A stretch of 23,766 nt of DNA, taken from positions 1 through 23,766 of IMG/VR virus record IMGVR_UViG_3300043119_000416. The stretch is one strand, 5' to 3'. Both the position numbers and the translations under genes were made by a program. Numbering within the stretch: the first letter of the stretch is position 1; each line of letters starts with the position of its first letter. Below the pieces are notes generated by a model. It was given only the letters and a program-made list of their open reading frames with translations. It was not told the origin of the DNA and ran no database searches. Shown piece after piece: positions 405 through 23,049 of this stretch. Origin of the DNA: a virus.

Positions 405-3400
405 GCACATCAGTCGGCACATTGACAATCGAGATGGCAGCCAACATCTTGCGCCTCCAGCAAGACATGGACAAGGCCAAGACAACCGTCGAAAACACCA
501 TGGCCAAGATCAGCAAGGCTGCTGGCGCTGCTGGCATGGCCCTTGGTGCATTGGGCGTGACTGTCGGTGTTGGCGCTTTTGCTGGCTGGATCAAAGGCGC
601 GATTGATGCAGCAGACGAAACCAGCAAACTTGCGCAAAAGATCGGCCTGGCCGTGCCGCAGGTGGCGGGATTGCAACTTGCATTTCGTCAATCGGGAATT
701 GATGCTGGAGCACTGCAAACCAGCATGAGCAAATTGTCGGTGGCGATTGCTGACGGCAACGATGCCTTTGTCGCAATGAATATCAGCACCAAAAAAGCTG
801 ATGGCACATTGAAGACAACCAGGGAAATGCTTGGAGACATTGCCGACAAGTTCAAAGATTATGAAGATGGGGCGGCAAAGACTGCACTGGCTGTTCAAAT
901 TTTTGGCAGGGCTGGTGCTGATCTGATCCCTCTTTTGAATGGTGGATCTGAGGCGCTCGACGAATTCGACGCAATGGCCAAGAAACTTGGCCTGACGCTT
1001 GACGAGGATACGGCCAAACGTGCCGAAAAGTTTAACGACACATTGGACTTGATGGGGCAGGGATTCAAAGGCATCAGCGCACAAGTCGCAGCACAAATGC
1101 TGCCAACACTTGAGGGGCTGGCTGATCAGTTCTTTTCGTCCATGACCGAGGGCGACCGCCTGAAGAAAATTGGCGATGCCTTGGCCATTGGATTGAAAAG
1201 TCTTTACGTTGTTGGCGTGGCTTTGGTCGGGGCTTTTCGGGCTGTTGGTGACACGCTTTATGCGGTTGGCGCTCAAGCCATGGCCGTGATGCGTGGTGAC
1301 TTTTCGGGTGCTGTCAAGATCGGCGAACAGTATGCCGCCGATATGAAGGCAAACTGGACAGGATCATTGGCTGAAATTGACAAGGCGTGGAATGCCAACG
1401 GCAGTACCGCAGTCAGCACCATGGCCGCCACCTCTGCGGCATTCAAAACACAAGCTCCAGTTGTTTCGACTGCAACCAAAAAGATGACCGATGAAACGGC
1501 CAAGAATACCGCCGAAACAGCAAAGCAAGAGGCCGAATATCAAAAGCTAATTCACAGCATCGAAAACAAAACAGAAGTGATGATTGCCGAGGCCGATGGC
1601 ACTGGCAAATTGACTGAGGCTCAAAAAATAGAATTGAAAGTGCAGCAAGACTTGCGCAATGGCACGCTCAAATTGACCGAAGAGCAAAAGGCCAACTTGG
1701 ATGCGGTTTTGAAATTGATGCTGGCGACCGAAGACAAAATCAAAACCGACAAAGAGATGGAGGCCACTCAGCTAAAAATCATCAAGGTTTCTGAGCAATT
1801 TGTAGATGCACAGAAAAAAGAAACTTCCTCTTTGATTGAGGGAAATCTGAAGCTGCAAGAACAAAACGATGTTTTGCGTCTTGGCGAGTCGGCTGTTCGT
1901 GCGCGTGAAATCGCTGTGCTGAGAGCCCAGGCAACAGACTTGGACTTTTATGCGGCAACATTTGAAGGCAACGAGGAGCTGGCCAACCAAGCACGACTGC
2001 TCCGCGAACGGGCAAATCTGCTTGAAGACAATGCTGGACTGGTGGCGGCCAAAGCCACCGCAGACGAGTGGAAGAAAACCTCTGAAAGCATCGAGTCCAG
2101 TTTGACCGATGCGCTCATGCGCGGTTTCGAGTCGGGCGAGGGGTTTGGCAAAAACCTCATGAGCACGCTTACCAACATGTTCAAGACATTGATCTTGCGG
2201 CCAATCATTCAACCCATTGCGCAGGCCGGATCGTCAATGGTTCTGAATGCCCTGGGCATTACATCCTCTGCGGCCTCTGCGGCTGGGGGTGCAAGCACGC
2301 TTGGCTCATTGGCATCAGGTGGTGGCTTGTTGGGTTCGATGGCCAATGCTGGCCAATACTTTGGCACAGGGTTCATGAATACGATCTCCGGATCTGGTGC
2401 GATGACGGGCTTAACGGCTGGCGCAGAAATTGGCGGCATGAGTGGCTTTGCGATGCAAGCTGGCGCTGTCATGCCTTATGTCGCAGCCGCGCTGGCGCTG
2501 GTTTCGCTGGTCGACTCGCTGGACGATTCGGGCACTTTGCACTCAGGCGGCACTGCTATGGCAAGCGCAACGGGCGCAAGAGCCACCACAGGCGAAGAAT
2601 TAAATTTTGTCGTGCAAACAAACGAAAAAATGCAGACCAGCATTGTCGGCATGGCTGGCAGCATTTCAAACACTTTGAACGGCTTGTCACGCGCATTTGG
2701 CATGGCCGAGGAGGTGGTGGTCGGCTTGGGCTTTGCAGACGATACAAGCGCAGACGGGGCATGGGGCGCTTTGAAGATTCTTGCCAGCGGCAGGACACTG
2801 GTGGATTGGGCCAGCGGCGTGGACAGATGGCCTGGGTTCGAGTTCTCGGACGGCGAGGCGGGGCTTGCAGAGTTCACGGCCAAGATCGCCACCGATGTGA
2901 AAGGCATGATTTCCTCGCTCGGCTTGCCCGAGTGGGCGATGTCGATCACAAACAATTTGCAAGATGGCGCCTCGCTGGAGCAAGTGCTTGAAACGCTGAA
3001 TCAGGTGGCAGCAATTCAATCAATGCTGGTGCAAGCAGGAGAGGCGCTGACGCTGATGGGCGGGCCATTCGCGGCGCTGGCCGCCAGCGGCGACGCTGCG
3101 GTGATGGCCATCTCGGGATTGGTCGGCGGCATCGATCAACTTGTGTCCAAGGCGCAAGGCTTTATGGCCAACTATTACACCGAGCAAGAACAATCCGGAG
3201 TGATCGCATCCTCGCTGGTGCAAGCCTTGTCGCAGGCAGGATTCACGCAAGCGCAAATCGAGGCGCTGGAGACTCGGGCAGATTTCCGCACGCTGTTGGA
3301 GAGCCTCAACGTCACCACCACCACTGGCCAGGAACAATTCGCCACGCTGTTGAATTTGCAAGACCAATTCGCGGGCCTGACCAGCACCATGAGCGAACAG

Positions 3401-12686: not shown

Positions 12687-13268
12687 TCAGGCCCAGTTGT
12701 CATCGTCGGCCACATCAGCAGCGGCTTTTGCAGCGCCAGCACCGATGCCGAATTCATCGGCTGCACTCATGCGAGGTGCGCCAAGAGGTTCACCTTTGGC
12801 CACCAGCAAGACATTATTCAGGCCAAAGGCCACGCCTTTGTTGCCGACCGCATCGTAGGCATAGGCATTGACTGACAGCTTCACATAATCGCCCGATGTG
12901 ACTGCATCAGGGTCGATCAGATCGCGGCCATTCATGTCGATGATTGCTGGCTTGTTTCGGTCGGCATCGGTCTTGCAGTTGAAAAACAGGTGGCCTTTGT
13001 ATTCCGCACCCATCGGGCTGCCATCATCCTTGGTGGATGTGTCGCCATCGCGCAGAGGGTTTTTCAAGCCCTTTGGCACAGTGCCTCCAAACTTCTTATC
13101 AATGGCAGCCTTGGCCGCAGCCTTGAGGCCATTGATCGTGTCTGTGTCGGTCTTGGGCACAAGCACGACAGCCGAATATTCGTTTTTCCCGTTCATTTCG
13201 TTTTTACCTGGTCGCATGATCTTGGCATAAGACAAGCGGACTTTTCCGGTTACAAATCGTGTTGACAT
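12687..13268 (-). CDS. ssDNA-binding protein, DUF2815 family
   Basis: This protein has 193 residues. It begins 'MSTRFVTGKVRLSYAKIM', and further on it has 'KNPLRDGDTS', 'YKGHLFFNCKT', 'DPDAVTSGDYVKLSVNAYAY' and 'GVAFGLNNVLLVAKGEPLG', which together identify the DUF2815 family of phage OB-fold, gp2.5-like ssDNA-binding proteins. The C-terminus is acidic (DVADDDNWA), as in SSBs that recruit partners through the tail. The start is ATG 13268 with AAAGGAA eight bases upstream. DUF2815 is usually found with DUF2800 nucleases, and one is present at 15241. A terminator and a probable promoter lie immediately upstream, so this gene can be transcribed apart from the helicase. Confidence 0.93.
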   Translation of the reverse strand: MSTRFVTGKVRLSYAKIMRPGKNEMNGKNEYSAVVLVPKTDTDTINGLKAAAKAAIDKKFGGTVPKGLKNPLRDGDTSTKDDGSPMGAEYKGHLFFNCKTDADRNKPAIIDMNGRDLIDPDAVTSGDYVKLSVNAYAYDAVGNKGVAFGLNNVLLVAKGEPLGAPRMSAADEFGIGAGAAKAAADVADDDNWA

Positions 13269-13290
13269 TTTCGGTTCCTTTGGTTTCGAC

Positions 13291-13318
13291 GTTAAAAAAA
13301 GCACAAACTGATTGTCAA
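13291..13318 (-). promoter_or_regulatory. Candidate promoter of the SSB gene, within a terminator
   Basis: On the minus strand, TTGACA (13318-13313) stands 16 bases before TTTAAC (13296-13291, four of six consensus positions). The -35 box is inside the hairpin and the -10 box uses the end of the terminator T run. A start near 13284 would leave a leader of about 16 bases carrying the ribosome site. The perfect -35 box is convincing and the -10 less so. Confidence 0.45.
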
Positions 13319-13331
13319 TCAATTTGTGCTT
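13294..13331 (-). terminator. Rho-independent terminator after the SNF2-like helicase gene
   Basis: Read leftward, a 16-bp stem with one mismatch (arms 13331-13316 and 13314-13299, tight turn) leads into seven T (13300-13294). It follows the helicase stop at 13347 by 15 bases and stands only 25 bases before the SSB start codon, so it should end the long leftward operon or attenuate it. Confidence 0.82.
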
Positions 13332-13346
13332 ACAGCATACCACAGA

Positions 13347-14570
13347 TCAAAGGATCTGCTCGATGATGTTCAGTTTTTTGAGCACTTTGCCCAAAATCGT
13401 GTGGTCCAGGCTGTTGCGCGTGGTGAGGATATAAACCGCAGGCGCGATGCCAAATTTTTGAATGTTCTCGACTCTGGCCGATGCCTGCTCAAAAGCACTG
13501 GTGGCCCAAGTCGCCTCGACAAAAATCACCGTGCTGGACTTGGACAGATCCACGCCTTCAGACAGCGTGGCAATGTTTCCGATGATGACTTTGGCATCAC
13601 CAGCCTGGAATGCCTCGATGTGCTTTTGCCGATCCGCTGCTGGGGTTTCTCCAGTGACCATCACGGGCTGATAATCCTTGAGGCCATCGTGCAGCATGGA
13701 GGCCACATCTTTGTGCCAGGCAAAGACCACCAGCGATTCGGACGGGTCATCCTCCAGCTTTCCTTTGATGAAATCAAGCGCCAGCGGCACTTTCCTGATG
13801 CCTCCCTCGCGCATGACCTCGGCCAAACCATCAAGCGCCAGGATCAGGTTTGGATTGTCAACCAGGGCATCAGAATCAAATTGCTTTTCCCTGCGGTCGA
13901 TGGGCAGATCCAACTCAATCATGCTGATGACGGGCTGCTGGTAGTTTTGGAAGACATCAGCCCTGGTGCGGCGCAAGACATGGGGGGTCAGTGCCTTTTT
14001 GAGTTCTGGCAAGTTGCTGGCCCCTGACACATCCAAGCCCCATGGTGAATGCCAGGCTTTTGCGTACCTGTACGCAAATTTCAGCCATGATCCTTTGTAA
14101 ATGCCCAGGCCGTGCAGCAGTGGCCAGATCTCGATTGGCCTGTTTGGAATGGGCGTGCCAGACAGCGCATAAACCACAGGCGTGGCCTTCATCAACTTCA
14201 TGGCCACCTTGGTGCGCTTGGTGGTCGGTGTCTTGATGCGGTGGGCTTCATCAATGATCAGGGTCTGCCAGCCATTGAGCGCGGTCAGGTTTGGCAGCAG
14301 ATCGTAATTGACAATCAGCACGCCACCTGGCACGCACTCCTCGGCCATCTTGCGGCCATTGACGATCACAGCCTGAATGCCCAATTGCTCAAATGCCTTT
14401 TTCCACACAGGCTTGGCCACAGCAGGGCACAGAACCAGCGCGGGCAGGTTTTGCGCAGCCGCTGTGGCCGTGGGCAATGTTTTGCCAACCCTTGGGGCAT
14501 CGGCCAGAATGCAGCGTTTGTGGGTCAGCAGAAAATCGCGTGCGATCTCTTGGTGAGGGTAGAGGGTCAA
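13347..14570 (-). CDS. SNF2-like DEAD/DEAH-box helicase
   Basis: This 407-residue SF2 ATPase is a compact phage version of the SNF2 family. Walker A is 'DAPRVGKT' (24-31) and Walker B/DEAH is at 107-110. Motif III is 'SGTPIPNRP'. In the C-terminal RecA-like lobe there are 'VVFAWHKDV', 'GNIATLSEGVDL' and 'EQASARVENIQKFG', the last being the place of motif VI. The likely task is remodelling DNA or displacing proteins during replication or recombination. The start appears to be TTG at 14570 in a TTGA overlap with the methyltransferase stop; no in-frame ATG lies nearby. It is the last gene of the long leftward operon. Confidence 0.9.
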   Translation of the reverse strand: MTLYPHQEIARDFLLTHKRCILADAPRVGKTLPTATAAAQNLPALVLCPAVAKPVWKKAFEQLGIQAVIVNGRKMAEECVPGGVLIVNYDLLPNLTALNGWQTLIIDEAHRIKTPTTKRTKVAMKLMKATPVVYALSGTPIPNRPIEIWPLLHGLGIYKGSWLKFAYRYAKAWHSPWGLDVSGASNLPELKKALTPHVLRRTRADVFQNYQQPVISMIELDLPIDRREKQFDSDALVDNPNLILALDGLAEVMREGGIRKVPLALDFIKGKLEDDPSESLVVFAWHKDVASMLHDGLKDYQPVMVTGETPAADRQKHIEAFQAGDAKVIIGNIATLSEGVDLSKSSTVIFVEATWATSAFEQASARVENIQKFGIAPAVYILTTRNSLDHTILGKVLKKLNIIEQIL

Positions 14571-15244
14571 AACATGGCCTCTTGCGTTTGCTTTATTGGT
14601 TGAGGTGCAAACAATTGACCTTGAGCCACAGCTTGCTCGATCCGTTGGCAGGCGATTTCAAAGTATTTTGGTTCACGCTCAATGCCTATGAATTTGCGGC
14701 CAAGCTGAATGGCGGCCACACCTGTCGTGCCACTGCCCATAAATGGGTCAAGGATGGTTTCAGATTTTGGGCAAATTTCAATAACCCATTTCATCACTTC
14801 AAGTGGTTTTTGAGTTGGGTGATAACGCTGTTCATTGCCCTGGCGAATCATTCCATTCCATCGCCATTGAAGTCGGCGAACAGCTTTTGACCAATTTGTC
14901 CAAGCCAATTCACAGTCTGCAAAATCGTTGTCACCATTCAATTTATCCCACACCAGCCAACATGATGTCGGCGGGAGGTTGAAATAATTGCCTCCAAAAA
15001 ACGCTTGGTGTTGTCCTTTGGTGCGGATTAACTCAATAAGCGCATCAGGCGGCGGCGCTTTGTCCCAGTCAAAGTCACCATAATCTTTAGGTGCAGCCAA
15101 CTTCCCTCGACTTGCCACTTTTTTGCTGTTTTCATTGATGCCATAAGGGGGGTCAGTGATGACAGCATCCACCTTATCAAGCGTTGGCAAAATGTCCATG
15201 CAGTCGCCAAGGTACAGCGTGGCATTTCCTATTTCAATTTTCAT
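14567..15244 (-). CDS. DNA methyltransferase (beta-class, N6-adenine or N4-cytosine)
   Basis: This 225-residue enzyme transfers a methyl group from S-adenosylmethionine to an exocyclic amine. Motif IV is DPPY (31-34) and precedes motif I ('DPFMGSGTTG', 166-175), which is the beta-class order. 'RYHPTQKPLEVMKW' is the usual conserved helix start. DPPY leaves adenine or N4-cytosine as target, with adenine more common. No restriction enzyme gene is beside it, so it looks like an orphan phage methylase, which may protect phage DNA from host restriction or mark replicated DNA. The ATG at 15244 overlaps the upstream stop. Confidence 0.93.
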   Translation of the reverse strand: MKIEIGNATLYLGDCMDILPTLDKVDAVITDPPYGINENSKKVASRGKLAAPKDYGDFDWDKAPPPDALIELIRTKGQHQAFFGGNYFNLPPTSCWLVWDKLNGDNDFADCELAWTNWSKAVRRLQWRWNGMIRQGNEQRYHPTQKPLEVMKWVIEICPKSETILDPFMGSGTTGVAAIQLGRKFIGIEREPKYFEIACQRIEQAVAQGQLFAPQPIKQTQEAMF

Positions 15245-16251
15245 GCCTTCACCTTCACCAGTGATGCCGCCTTGCGGGTTTCCTCGATCATGGCCTCTGG
15301 CACTTCCAGGCCCATTTTCAGGATGGCGCTGGCCGACTTCAAGCTAAATGCCTCGGGCTTGCCCTTGAGCAACTCGGCCACCAGCTTTTCATCCTTGAAT
15401 TTGGTCATCCTTGCACCAGGCTTCATCGCCCAGCCTTTGATCGACTCGGGCTGCTCGGCCAGTTGCTTTTTGGCCGCATCTTGCACAGCATCAGCCCATG
15501 TGCTACACAGCGCAGCATCGGCCAATTGCTCTGACGTGATGCCCAGGCCGAATTCAGTCTTTGCCGCATTCACGGCCACATCTCGCAGGGCATCGCATTG
15601 AGTCTTGGCTCGGCAATACTTGCAGGCATCTTGGTCTGGGTTCCTGGCCGCATTGGGCTGATGCGCAGCCACCGCCAGATCGCGCAGCTTGTCCTTCCAA
15701 GCCATCAGGTCGGCATAAGTGCATGACCATTCGCGCCAGCCACCATGATCGGGCTGGTAGATGGCCAGGCGCACAGTCACTGTCGGCGGCGCATTGAGCG
15801 CAATAGCAGCGCCTAGCGCATAGGTCATCAATTGGAGGTTGTTGTCTGGCGATACCTCGATGCGGCCAGTCTTGAGATCGCACACGGTCATGATGCCGCC
15901 ACCAATGGCGATCAAGTCAGCAGTGCCGCCGAGCGATTCGTGGATGGTTTTCAGCGCCTCGGTCACATCCAACTCGATGTAATGTTTCTTGGCGTGGGCT
16001 GTTTGCTCCATGGCTGTGGTGACATACTTTTGTGCGATGGCGATCATTTCATCGTCAACACCAGTGACAGGCTGCTGGCGCAGTATCTGTTCGGCGATCT
16101 CATGAATGTCAGTGCCTCGCTGGGCAGCCTCACTGGTGCTGTTTGGCATCCCTCGCTCGGCCAGCAGGGAGCCTGGGCAAACAGCAACCCTTGAGATCTT
16201 GCTGGCGCTCATAAATGCGTGCTGGCGCTGTGCGTGGTCAGGATTGGACAT
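15241..16251 (-). CDS. Cas4-like PD-(D/E)XK nuclease, DUF2800 family
   Basis: This protein has 336 residues. Nuclease motifs appear in order: 'HEIAE' (His50), 'GGTADLIAIGG', 'VCDLKTG' (the D-x-K pair) and 'LQLMTYALG', followed by 'YQPDH'. Four cysteines ('VCPGS' at residue 25 and 'ACKYCRAKTQC' further on) sit where Cas4/AddB-type enzymes hold an iron-sulfur cluster. The protein probably resects DNA ends together with the DUF2815 SSB at 12687, a pair known from phage recombination modules. The start is ATG 16251 with AAGGA upstream, 14 bases inside the previous gene; a longer frame (to 16332) has no support. Confidence 0.9.
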   Translation of the reverse strand: MSNPDHAQRQHAFMSASKISRVAVCPGSLLAERGMPNSTSEAAQRGTDIHEIAEQILRQQPVTGVDDEMIAIAQKYVTTAMEQTAHAKKHYIELDVTEALKTIHESLGGTADLIAIGGGIMTVCDLKTGRIEVSPDNNLQLMTYALGAAIALNAPPTVTVRLAIYQPDHGGWREWSCTYADLMAWKDKLRDLAVAAHQPNAARNPDQDACKYCRAKTQCDALRDVAVNAAKTEFGLGITSEQLADAALCSTWADAVQDAAKKQLAEQPESIKGWAMKPGARMTKFKDEKLVAELLKGKPEAFSLKSASAILKMGLEVPEAMIEETRKAASLVKVKA

Positions 16252-16411
16252 TTTTTTCCTTGTTGATTTCGTTGAGGTAGTTGTCGAGTGCATCCATTGC
16301 TGCCTGCCATTGGTCTGCGCAAAAAAAGTCATCCTTGGTCAGATAGAGCAAATTTGAAAGTTCATGCGCCATCTTGCGCGACAGGGCTGTCATTTTTTCT
16401 GTGTCATTCAT
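16238..16411 (-). CDS. Small helical protein, unknown
   Basis: This 57-residue, mostly helical protein starts at ATG 16411 in an ATGA overlap with the upstream stop; another ATG at 16423 lies in the same frame. The sequence is polar with one aromatic patch ('YLTKDDFFCADQW'), and its end overlaps the DUF2800 start by 14 bases. I do not recognise it. Confidence 0.55.
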   Translation of the reverse strand: MNDTEKMTALSRKMAHELSNLLYLTKDDFFCADQWQAAMDALDNYLNEINKEKNVQS

Positions 16412-20185: not shown

Positions 20186-20221
20186 GAAAAGCAGTTGACC
20201 ACTGCCTGCCTTGTGCTTTTC
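20186..20221 (+). promoter_or_regulatory. Leader with alternative hairpins before the primase gene
   Basis: In the 93-base gap there are two mutually exclusive pairings: GAAAAGCA (20186-20193) with TGCTTTTC (20214-20221), and GCAGT (20191-20195) with ACTGC (20201-20205). Both use the bases GCA at 20191-20193. A regulatory leader is possible, and there is no terminator-like T run apart from TTTT. Confidence 0.35.
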
Positions 20222-20244
20222 AGGTCAATTTCCAACAAGGTCAC

Positions 20245-22398
20245 ATGGAAAACAACCCAATTCCCCAAGCGCATCCATCAAGGGCAGTCGCACAGGCCAT
20301 CGCCAGCATTTGCCCTGATGCCATGTTCTGCGGCTTCAAAGTCAAGCCCAAGGCCGATGGCACATTTGCCAAGATACCCTTCAACAAGAACGGCCAGGGC
20401 GTGGCCGCCAACACGGCCAAGGCCGATCTGGTGCAAGGCAGCGAACTTAGCAGCCAGCCGCCAGGTGGTGAGCATTGGGGCGTGGTCATGCAGAACCCCA
20501 CATTCGATCCCTTTGGCGAACTGGTGCTGACAATCCTTGACCTCGACACCAAGCGCAGCACAGCCCCAAGAGATCTGCGCATGGAAAAACTCATGGCGCA
20601 GGCCAAAGCCATGGGCCTGATGACCGAGCGCAGCCACAGCAAAAAGGGCGGCCACATCATCTTTTTGGCCAAACCTGATCAGGATATGCCGCCAAAGATC
20701 AAACTCGGAAACGATCAGGAGATCGAGATCTTTGGCCATCCAAAGTCTGCTGGCAAATCGGTGATGCTTACAGGCGATGCACTCAGAGGTGATGTGATTG
20801 AAATCACAATCACGTTAAAAGAATTTTTGGCCAATGCTGGCATCAGCATTGAAAAAGAACCAGAGCCAAAACCAGCGCCAGCGCCAACCCTGCCAAGACA
20901 GACCACATCAGGCGACATGGACAAGGCCGCCGAGGCTTTGCAATTCATCAGCCCAGATCTGGACTATGACGAATGGATCGCCATCGGCCAAGCATTGCAC
21001 ACAGCATTCGGCCATGCAGGTCTGTCGATCTGGCATTCATGGTCATCACAGGGCAGCAAATATAAGGGCGACAAGGACATCGAGCAACACTGGCGCTCAT
21101 TTAAACCCGATGGAGGCATCACCCTTGGGTCATTGTTTCACCAGGCCATGGAGCGCGGCTACAAACCACCATCGCGCCAAGACGAACGGCGCACCGCTGT
21201 CGAGGATTTTGGCCAGTTCATCAAGGCCCAAGAGGCTGGGCCAACGGTTGACCAAGAAACAGGCGAGATCACCGAGCCACCAAGCCTGCACTGGCCAGAG
21301 GTCGATTACAGTCTGACCAGGCTTGAACCGATCCGCTATTTGGTCGACGGGTTCCTGGCCCACAGCTTGTTCGTGATGGCTGGTCAGCCAGGCGTGGGCA
21401 AGACCAGCGCATTGATCTCATTGGCCATGGTGCAGGCCGGATTCAGCATTGATGGCTGCGAACTCAAGACACGCAAGAGGCGAAAGACCATCTTTGTCAC
21501 CGAGGACTCAGACCAGATCGTGCGCAGCCTGTTTGCCTATGGCAAGCATTTTGGCATCGATCCTGCACACATTGCCGAGTTTGTGGTGATCATTGATGCC
21601 AGGCGGTCTGATGTCAAAGACATTTTGAAGCTGGCCCAGAACTGCGAAAAGCACACGCTCGACAATCAGCGGCCATGGCTGGTGCTCGACACGGCCAATG
21701 CCACGCTCGACCTCGATGATGAAAATGACAATGCCAAGGTCGGCCAATACCTATCGAGCATCAAGGCCACGCTGTTCGTTCAAATGCAAGTGCCGATCTG
21801 CATCACAGCACACACCAACAAGACCATCAGCCGCCAGGACAGCGATGCCCAAGCGCGTGGCGCATCGGCCTTCACAGGCGATGCAACCCTGACGGGCATC
21901 TTGTTCCTCGACAAGGATGATCAGCGTTACCTCAAGCTGACCAAAACCAGATATGAACCAGTTTTTAGGGAAATCAGATTCGATTCTCAAACATTTATTG
22001 AGGCCGTCACAGACGATGAAGGCGAATTGCAAGAGATCGTTTGTCGGGTGTCCATTCCCCATGTGAGCAGTGAGGAACTGAGGATTAAGTCAGCAGCAGA
22101 AAAGACCGACGAATATATGCAGGCGGCCATTATGGATAAATGCGACGAGGCCTGTTCATTTGTTCAGCACATAATAAATACTTCACCTGATGGCGTCATT
22201 ATCCAAAGAGGCCCAGGCCGGATTACTGTGCCAAAGAACATGACTCAAATGGTGGGTTTGAAATGGGATGACATACTGGACCAGATCAAGGGCGCAAAGT
22301 CCAATCATGATGTCACCAAGGCTATCAAACAGGCGGTCATGACGCGCTTTGGAGTGGACCACATGGGCCGTCCAGGGTGGGTTCAGTTGGTCGGATAA
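20245..22398 (+). CDS. Bifunctional primase-helicase (AEP-type primase, PriCT-2, RecA-like ATPase)
   Basis: This 717-residue protein has AAGG before ATG 20245. The N-terminal primase-polymerase part (about 1-195) has 'LTILDLDT' (the acidic pair 99-101), 'ERSHSKKGGHIIF' (128-140) and 'EIFG...VMLTGD' (161-178), matching archaeo-eukaryotic primases of phages. A Pro-rich linker (205-220) is followed by a PriCT-2-like domain (about 226-305). The C-terminal helicase has Walker A 'GQPGVGKT' (380-387), Walker B 'LVLDT' (479-483), the sensor His523 and 'RGASAF' (538-543). The protein should open and prime the origin. The non-coding repeat region after it fits that role. Base use near 22000-22200 is slightly richer in AT. 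Confidence 0.93.
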   Translation: MENNPIPQAHPSRAVAQAIASICPDAMFCGFKVKPKADGTFAKIPFNKNGQGVAANTAKADLVQGSELSSQPPGGEHWGVVMQNPTFDPFGELVLTILDLDTKRSTAPRDLRMEKLMAQAKAMGLMTERSHSKKGGHIIFLAKPDQDMPPKIKLGNDQEIEIFGHPKSAGKSVMLTGDALRGDVIEITITLKEFLANAGISIEKEPEPKPAPAPTLPRQTTSGDMDKAAEALQFISPDLDYDEWIAIGQALHTAFGHAGLSIWHSWSSQGSKYKGDKDIEQHWRSFKPDGGITLGSLFHQAMERGYKPPSRQDERRTAVEDFGQFIKAQEAGPTVDQETGEITEPPSLHWPEVDYSLTRLEPIRYLVDGFLAHSLFVMAGQPGVGKTSALISLAMVQAGFSIDGCELKTRKRRKTIFVTEDSDQIVRSLFAYGKHFGIDPAHIAEFVVIIDARRSDVKDILKLAQNCEKHTLDNQRPWLVLDTANATLDLDDENDNAKVGQYLSSIKATLFVQMQVPICITAHTNKTISRQDSDAQARGASAFTGDATLTGILFLDKDDQRYLKLTKTRYEPVFREIRFDSQTFIEAVTDDEGELQEIVCRVSIPHVSSEELRIKSAAEKTDEYMQAAIMDKCDEACSFVQHIINTSPDGVIIQRGPGRITVPKNMTQMVGLKWDDILDQIKGAKSNHDVTKAIKQAVMTRFGVDHMGRPGWVQLVG

Positions 22399-22440
22399 GG
22401 TCAAACATGAGGATCATCAAAAATGAATACTAAGAATTGC

Positions 22441-22480
22441 TTGGAAATAGTTGGAAATGGTTGGAAATGGTTGGACAACG
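22441..22480. repeat. Four 10-bp phased direct repeats (iteron-like)
   Basis: Four tandem units begin at 22441, 22451, 22461 and 22471: TTGGAAATAG, TTGGAAATGG, TTGGAAATGG and TTGGACAACG. The 10-bp spacing puts each on the same face of the helix, as in replication iterons. TTGGA and its complement recur in the hairpin at 22573-22609 and in 22615-22620. Confidence 0.85.
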
Positions 22481-22499
22481 AATTGAAGGGGGAGGTGTT

Positions 22500-22540
22500 T
22501 TGGGATATTCAGGGGGCAATTTATTGCCCCTGAATACCAA
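22500..22540. other. Long bulged hairpin in origin-like region
   Basis: Arms 22500-22520 and 22523-22540 pair over about 18 bp (TTGG, TATTCAGGGG, CAAT against ATTGCCCC, TGAATA, CCAA) with two bulges and a loop of two bases. No T run follows on either strand, so it is not a typical terminator. Confidence 0.75.
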
Positions 22541-22572
22541 TACCCTTCTGCAAAAATGAATACTAAGATTTA

Positions 22573-22609
22573 ATTGGTTGGAGTGCAATTCCTTTAGGCT
22601 CCAACCAAT
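22573..22609. other. Perfect 11-bp hairpin in origin-like region
   Basis: ATTGGTTGGAG (22573-22583) and CTCCAACCAAT (22599-22609) are perfect inverted repeats with a 15-base loop. Four T follow (ACTTTTCC), so weak rightward termination cannot be excluded. The arms contain the TTGG core of the nearby direct repeats. Confidence 0.75.
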
Positions 22610-22656
22610 ACTTTTCCAACTAATTGGCCATCCTGGTGGATGTGGTGAAAGGTGAG

Positions 22657-23049
22657 ATGATGCAAGCAAAAGCAAACAACAATGGATGTGTGAAAGATCA
22701 CACGATGGAAAAAGCAAAAGCCCATGGTTTGGTCGATGAACTGGCCGATGGGTGGGTTGACGATGACCGGATCACATGCAACATGTGCCAGCACATGGCA
22801 CAGCACCTGCACAAGGTCAACATGCCAGCAGATCACTTTGACAAGATCAGGCGAGAAAATCACATTGCCAATCGATGGATGTTTGATATTGTCAAGATTC
22901 AAAATAATTGGGCACGGGTTGAATATATGGGCTGGCAGTGCAATGGCGGCCAGCGTTCATATATTCCGATCGACATCAAGCACCGATGCGACAGCTATAA
23001 ACCCAAAGAGGCAGCACGGGCATTTAATGTGAAAGAATGGTGGGAATAA
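22657..23049 (+). CDS. Cys/His-rich protein, unknown
   Basis: This protein has 130 residues from ATG 22657; a second ATG at 22660 lies at better distance from AAAGGTGA. Cys41, Cys44 and His46 ('CNMCQH') and the later Cys95 and Cys111 ('WQCNGG', 'KHRCDSYKP') could bind zinc or iron. The rest is rich in Trp, Lys and Asp. The stop overlaps the next start by one base (TAATG). It is transcribed with the nuclease genes after the origin-like region. No family is recognised. Confidence 0.6.
   Translation: MMQAKANNNGCVKDHTMEKAKAHGLVDELADGWVDDDRITCNMCQHMAQHLHKVNMPADHFDKIRRENHIANRWMFDIVKIQNNWARVEYMGWQCNGGQRSYIPIDIKHRCDSYKPKEAARAFNVKEWWE

Follow-up and report, generated by a model that had tools for sequence, protein, structure and literature searches.

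The intergenic segment at positions 22399–22656 of the virus record IMGVR_UViG_3300043119_000416 (IMG/VR), of which we analysed a stretch of 23,766 nucleotides, hereafter the window, is very probably the site at which this phage starts its replication. This reading rests on a minimum and a sign flip of GC skew, on the enrichment of DnaA boxes at the corresponding position in related phages, and on the covariation of the repeats in the region with the C-terminus of RepA, the replication protein encoded immediately upstream. Taking these data together, we consider it likely that the region is an iteron origin which the C-terminal domain of RepA would recognise, and at which RepA would be loaded and prime synthesis.

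Anatomy of the candidate origin

The region is 258 bp long and contains no annotatable gene; it lies between the end of repA at 22398 and the start codon (ATG) of the following gene at 22657, in agreement with a first-pass annotation that had placed a gene-free segment directly after a primase-helicase gene. The elements listed in that annotation, namely four 10-bp units at 10-bp spacing, an 18-bp repeat pair, a bulged hairpin and a perfect 11-bp hairpin, are all present. Together with the flanking genes, the features are the following (L-numbers are contigs of relatives).

20245..22398 (+): repA-like initiator gene, with PrimPol-like N-terminus, PriCT-2, RecA/DnaB-like helicase and C-terminal domain
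22072..22395 (+): RepA C-terminal domain, proposed iteron reader (covariation, cassette exchange; model pLDDT 79)
22399..22656 (+): candidate replication origin region, intergenic (architecture in 50 relatives, skew minimum and flip, DnaA boxes located here in relatives)
22418..22435 (+): A-rich flanking box, copy 1, CAAAAATGAATACTAAGA; conserved in L002
22441..22480 (+): 5' iteron cluster, four units, 10-bp spacing
22502..22538 (+): central bulged hairpin, GGGATATTCAGGGGGCAA/TTGCCCCTGAATACC; L003 has other stem letters with the pairing kept
22551..22568 (+): A-rich flanking box, copy 2, CAAAAATGAATACTAAGA; conserved in L003/L016
22573..22609 (+): 3' hairpin, composed of a direct iteron, a CCTTTAGG loop (22591–22598) and an inverted iteron
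22613..22620 (−): extra inverted iteron copy, TTTCCAAC, overlooked in the first-pass annotation
22657..23049 (+): conserved next gene, whose product is small and contains cysteines; it borders the exchanged cassette on the right

The TTGG-led 10-mers of the 5' cluster start at 22441, 22451, 22461 and 22471, in exact 10-bp steps, the last of them (TTGGACAACG) being degenerate, and the two copies of the 18-bp repeat are 133 bp apart. The arms of the perfect 11-bp hairpin, ATTGGTTGGAG and CTCCAACCAAT, occupy 22573–22583 and 22599–22609, and relatives preserve the loop of the 3' hairpin in the form CC(C)TTWRGGG. Neither the 18-bp repeat nor the period-10 tandem arose in any of 1000 dinucleotide shuffles, and the 11-bp hairpin arose in six; window-wide, the strongest period-10 array and the longest exact repeat both fall within this feature. 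The region folds as DNA with a z-score of −3.9 and has a GC content of 40%, compared with 52% for the window, with 50-mers down to 30% GC. The lowest-GC stretch of the window is located elsewhere, and 50-mers below 30% GC occur outside the region. Single near-matches to the iteron are found at 20220–20235 (minus strand, just upstream of the repA start) and at 22256, inside repA, and might permit autoregulation.

The replication protein and its neighbours

The repA product (717 aa) matches PF08707 (PriCT-2, E 6e-22) and PF13481 (AAA_25, E 3e-12). In its AlphaFold model (mean pLDDT 78), the N-terminus matches NrS-1 PrimPol, the closest solved structure (E 2e-8), and the centre matches DnaB (E 2e-6) and RSF1010 RepA (1g8y, E 5e-4); a profile of the protein has no sequence match in the PDB. 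The C-terminal domain by itself has no sequence match in the PDB and no Pfam family, and its model retrieved no significant PDB fold match, while the order of its elements would permit a winged helix. Among the phages and plasmids searched, this domain was found in these RepA proteins only. The product of the next gene has no Pfam or PHROG match. DNA polymerases of families A, B and III-alpha are absent from four near-complete relatives, and thus either host Pol III or the PrimPol would copy the genome. The window (12687–16332, minus strand) and the near-complete relatives also carry a replication/recombination module consisting of an Enc34-like ssDNA-binding protein, a SNF2-type helicase, an N6/N4 methylase and a PDDEXK/DUF2800 nuclease.

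Conservation among relatives

Relatives with repA comprise about 76 metagenomic viral contigs, the circular phage record MW202879.1 (44% identity) and one contig, L117, in a bacterial metagenome-assembled genome; the distinct relatives compared number 50, and the non-redundant regions, with the window included, 51. In the window and in all relatives read, the region directly follows repA and is built to a common plan: two to four direct repeats, spaced by roughly one turn of the helix, lead to an inverted copy and a central hairpin, beyond which come a further one or two direct repeats, a loop of the CCTTTAGG type and a second inverted copy. The letters of the repeats are wholly different between phages, and the copies inside one phage change together with their spacing kept, 10-10-10 bp in the window and 8-11-11 bp in many relatives. 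About ten repeat classes can be recognised (GTTGGAAAT, TATTAGGTGG, TCGACCGGAC, TCGAAGGGAC, TAATCCGGTA, CAACGGGTA, CAAGGGGTG, GATCGGAC, ATGGGGAC, TCGAGGATAC and kin). The expectation that the same repeats would recur beside the primase-helicase gene of related phages is thus borne out for the repeat and hairpin architecture, which is kept in 50 phages, and fails for the letters.

All 51 regions fold better than their shuffles (z < −3 in every case, median −6.5). A strict automatic check recovered the full plan in 31 of the 51; in the misses that were looked at, the 8-mer rule appears to have settled on another motif. The central hairpin of the window, L002 and L003 differs from that of relatives with DnaA boxes, and a search of viral contigs for its pattern, TTTTGGGATATT..AATACCC, returned a close relative and chance matches only; the AAAAATGAATACTAAGA box is likewise limited to the window's sub-clade. 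In MW202879.1, a hypothetical protein annotated at 3078–3311 (UOF82893.1) spans the origin region; this annotation probably does not represent a real gene. The ends of the L003/L016 contig (3300043466_002107) overlap by 122 bp inside the origin, so that this genome, complete at about 33.9 kb, is circular or permuted.

Strand composition and DnaA boxes

The detrended cumulative GC skew reaches its global minimum 42–398 bp before the marker of the repA end in all seven near-complete genomes, which come from lineages with RepA proteins as low as 44% identical. Third-codon GC skew is negative in repA (−0.15 to −0.28) and positive in the downstream genes (+0.06 to +0.21) in all 11 phages compared, among them that of the window; as the genes compared lie on the same strand, gene direction does not explain the flip. 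The window itself displays a local switch of strand composition at the region. The skew analysis proposed as a check on the iteron-type origin thus places both minimum and sign flip at the region in relatives and, with the architecture found beside the same gene in 50 phages, backs the proposal.

Exact DnaA boxes number 87 in the 290-bp regions after repA, all on the plus strand, versus 18 in 478.6 kb elsewhere, so that perfect boxes are enriched 160-fold in the region in relatives. At least one is present in 38 of the 51 regions; the regions of the window, L002, L003 and L090, which represent the window's sub-clade, have none. A second, smaller cluster lies 1.42–1.55 kb after the repA stop in L029, L030, L031, L033, L036, L038, L040, L050 and L077, and accounts for 17 of the 18 boxes outside the origin. 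It precedes a stretch of C-run/G-run and A-run/T-run sequence near the terminase genes, is absent from the same interval of L003 and L090, and is possibly a cos-like or second regulatory site.

Covariation of the repeats with the RepA C-terminus

When iteron similarity was compared with sliding stretches of RepA, controlling for whole-RepA distance, a signal appeared only at residues ~601–706 (partial r 0.20–0.38, compared with at most 0.08 elsewhere in RepA). A separate clade of 26 phages, to which the window does not belong, behaves in the same way: the partial correlation of origin with C-terminus given the core is 0.58 (permutation p 0.0005), that of origin with core given the C-terminus is −0.02, and the downstream gene does not covary with the origin beyond background (partial r −0.02). 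The relatives are related by descent, and Mantel-type tests correct for this kinship in part only.

The clearest exchange comes from one pair of contigs, L003 and L090, with DNA identity of 88–95% up to ~22097, where the exchanged stretch within the C-terminal domain begins, 37–67% over the final ~100 codons of repA together with the origin, and 86–97% again after ~22743. The same dip, in a milder form, separates the window from L002 and L003. This is the pattern that a specificity cassette would be expected to leave, as if the C-terminal domain and the origin had changed as one piece, in lock-and-key fashion. A tree of the helicase part groups L090 with the window at a support of 100/100. In the C-terminal tree this grouping is weak and separated by a long branch, and L090 does not fall with the other phages that carry its iteron. 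A transfer of the L090 domain from the L033/L077 lineage is rejected, as the C-terminal tree disagrees with it (p-AU 0.0096 against one clade); the domain may have come from another donor or may have diverged fast. Covariation and the joint exchange of C-terminal domain and repeats thus indirectly support recognition of the region by the primase-helicase.

Alternative explanations

The origin could instead be recognised by another protein, either the product of the next gene or host DnaA, with RepA acting only as the loaded helicase-primase. The conserved small gene that comes next and the DnaA boxes in most regions are compatible with this arrangement, which we nevertheless regard as unlikely, since the RepA C-terminus alone stands out in the covariation, in which the downstream gene has no share beyond background, and the window's sub-clade is devoid of DnaA boxes.

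Quite unlikely, in our estimate, is a regulatory role in which the region controls repA and the genes that follow it, with the repeats as an operator array bound by RepA or another regulator and the hairpins as terminators. Plasmid iterons often serve as operators too, the region sits between two same-strand genes, and T-rich sequence follows the 3' hairpin in several relatives. However, the window's copy has neither a terminator-like site nor an excess of promoters, and a control function would leave unexplained the skew minimum, the sign flip and the single orientation of the DnaA boxes.

We consider it very unlikely that the region, close to the terminase genes, serves in packaging (cos/pac) or recombination. 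VRR-NUC and terminase small subunit genes do follow at a distance of up to about 1 kb in one relative, and the window has an HNH gene, but the partner in covariation is the RepA C-terminus rather than the downstream gene. The L003 contig does close on itself inside the region, but the self-overlaps of 122 and 127 bp resemble assembler k-mer overlaps, and the G004 contig ends away from the origin. Finally, a structured RNA in the repA transcript is hardly credible despite the strong foldability and the pairing that survives letter changes between window/L002 and L003, because an Rfam search gave no match at a credible score, direct repeats at helical spacing and DnaA boxes are features of double-stranded DNA, and the skew flip would have no explanation.

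Proposed mechanism and implications

From the anatomy of the region, its conservation, the skew switch, the DnaA-box enrichment and the covariation with cassette exchange, all read from sequence, we infer, by analogy with P4 alpha, pRN1 and the PLE RepA/ori module, how an iteron origin served by RepA might work. RepA would bind the phased repeats via its C-terminal ~75–110 residues, with each turn of the 5' cluster occupied by one protomer and the 3' cluster by two, and this binding would load its own RecA-like helicase ring. The A-rich flanks or the hairpins would then open, and the PrimPol part of RepA would prime synthesis on the opened DNA. Boxes for host DnaA, which many relatives have in the central hairpin, may assist.

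More tentatively, and with somewhat less than even confidence, we propose that a hypervariable cassette for replication specificity, composed of the RepA C-terminal domain and the origin, is common to the whole phage family and has been repeatedly re-lettered or exchanged with its spacing fixed. Competition among co-infecting relatives, satellites or origin-targeting nucleases could have driven this process, comparable to plasmid incompatibility groups. The family provides about 50 natural pairs of a ~100-residue domain and a short DNA target, in about ten repeat classes with conserved spacing, which makes a joint change of initiator and origin specificity directly testable. The candidate region would also give an origin to an uncultured phage group with PrimPol-helicase replication proteins.

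Comparison with known systems

As in iteron origins, the direct repeats lie about one helical turn apart, strand composition switches at the site, and the site adjoins the gene of the putative initiator, RepA. In the P4 alpha protein, a single polypeptide unites the primase and the helicase with an origin-binding domain of winged-helix type, by which the short repeats (ori/crr) are read (PMC4234260). The likeness is that of a fused initiator beside iterons, and the phage region would function as an iteron origin with a P4-alpha-type initiator. However, P4 alpha has a Toprim primase, whereas RepA has an NrS-1-like PrimPol, PriCT-2 and a RecA-like helicase and, lacking Toprim, falls outside the P4 family; the C-terminus of P4 alpha is a winged helix, while that of RepA matches no solved structure in sequence or fold. 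In pRN1, the PrimPol-helicase gene (ORF904) is followed by an origin of conserved structure and variable letters, and for some phages the presence of similar stem-loops 3' of their replication genes has been proposed (PMC4234260). Here as well, the rep gene is directly followed on its 3' side by an element that keeps its structure and varies in its letters. The helicase of pRN1, however, is of the SF3 type, and the pRN1 origin consists of one long stem-loop and lacks iterons; with a RecA/DnaB-like AAA_25 helicase and iterons, the phage system is not of the pRN1 type.

RSF1010 oriV contains iterons and hairpin priming sites (PMC4234260), and its hexameric RepA-type helicase resembles that of the phage (fold match 1g8y), but RSF1010 divides among three proteins, RepA, RepB' and the distinct initiator RepC, what here would reside in one. 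The NrS-1 primase-polymerase initiates sequence-specifically, at sites proposed as an origin (PMC7102993, PMC8718748); its motif, TTTGGTTA, which has only two copies in the NrS-1 genome, is absent from the origin described here, and, as far as the accessible text of these reports goes, no iteron array is described for NrS-1, unlike the phage region. A sequence-based description exists of a family of AEP-PriCT proteins that have a RepA- or DnaB-type helicase and, at the C-terminus, a winged helix (PMC5862659); the literature searched yielded no account of their origin or of its exchange.

Exchange itself has its closest parallel in PLE, a satellite in Vibrio cholerae, in which the DNA-binding domain of RepA and the origin iterons covary and are swapped as a module, and only cognate pairs replicate (PMC8263062). 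In PLE the reader is an N-terminal RepA_N domain, which Pfam and PHROG searches did not find in the phage RepA, and the iterons are semi-palindromic and ~30 bp long; here the units are 8–11 bp and the proposed reader is a C-terminal domain of another family. The recurrence of the same pattern with different components suggests that the origin exchange known from PLE is a more general phenomenon.
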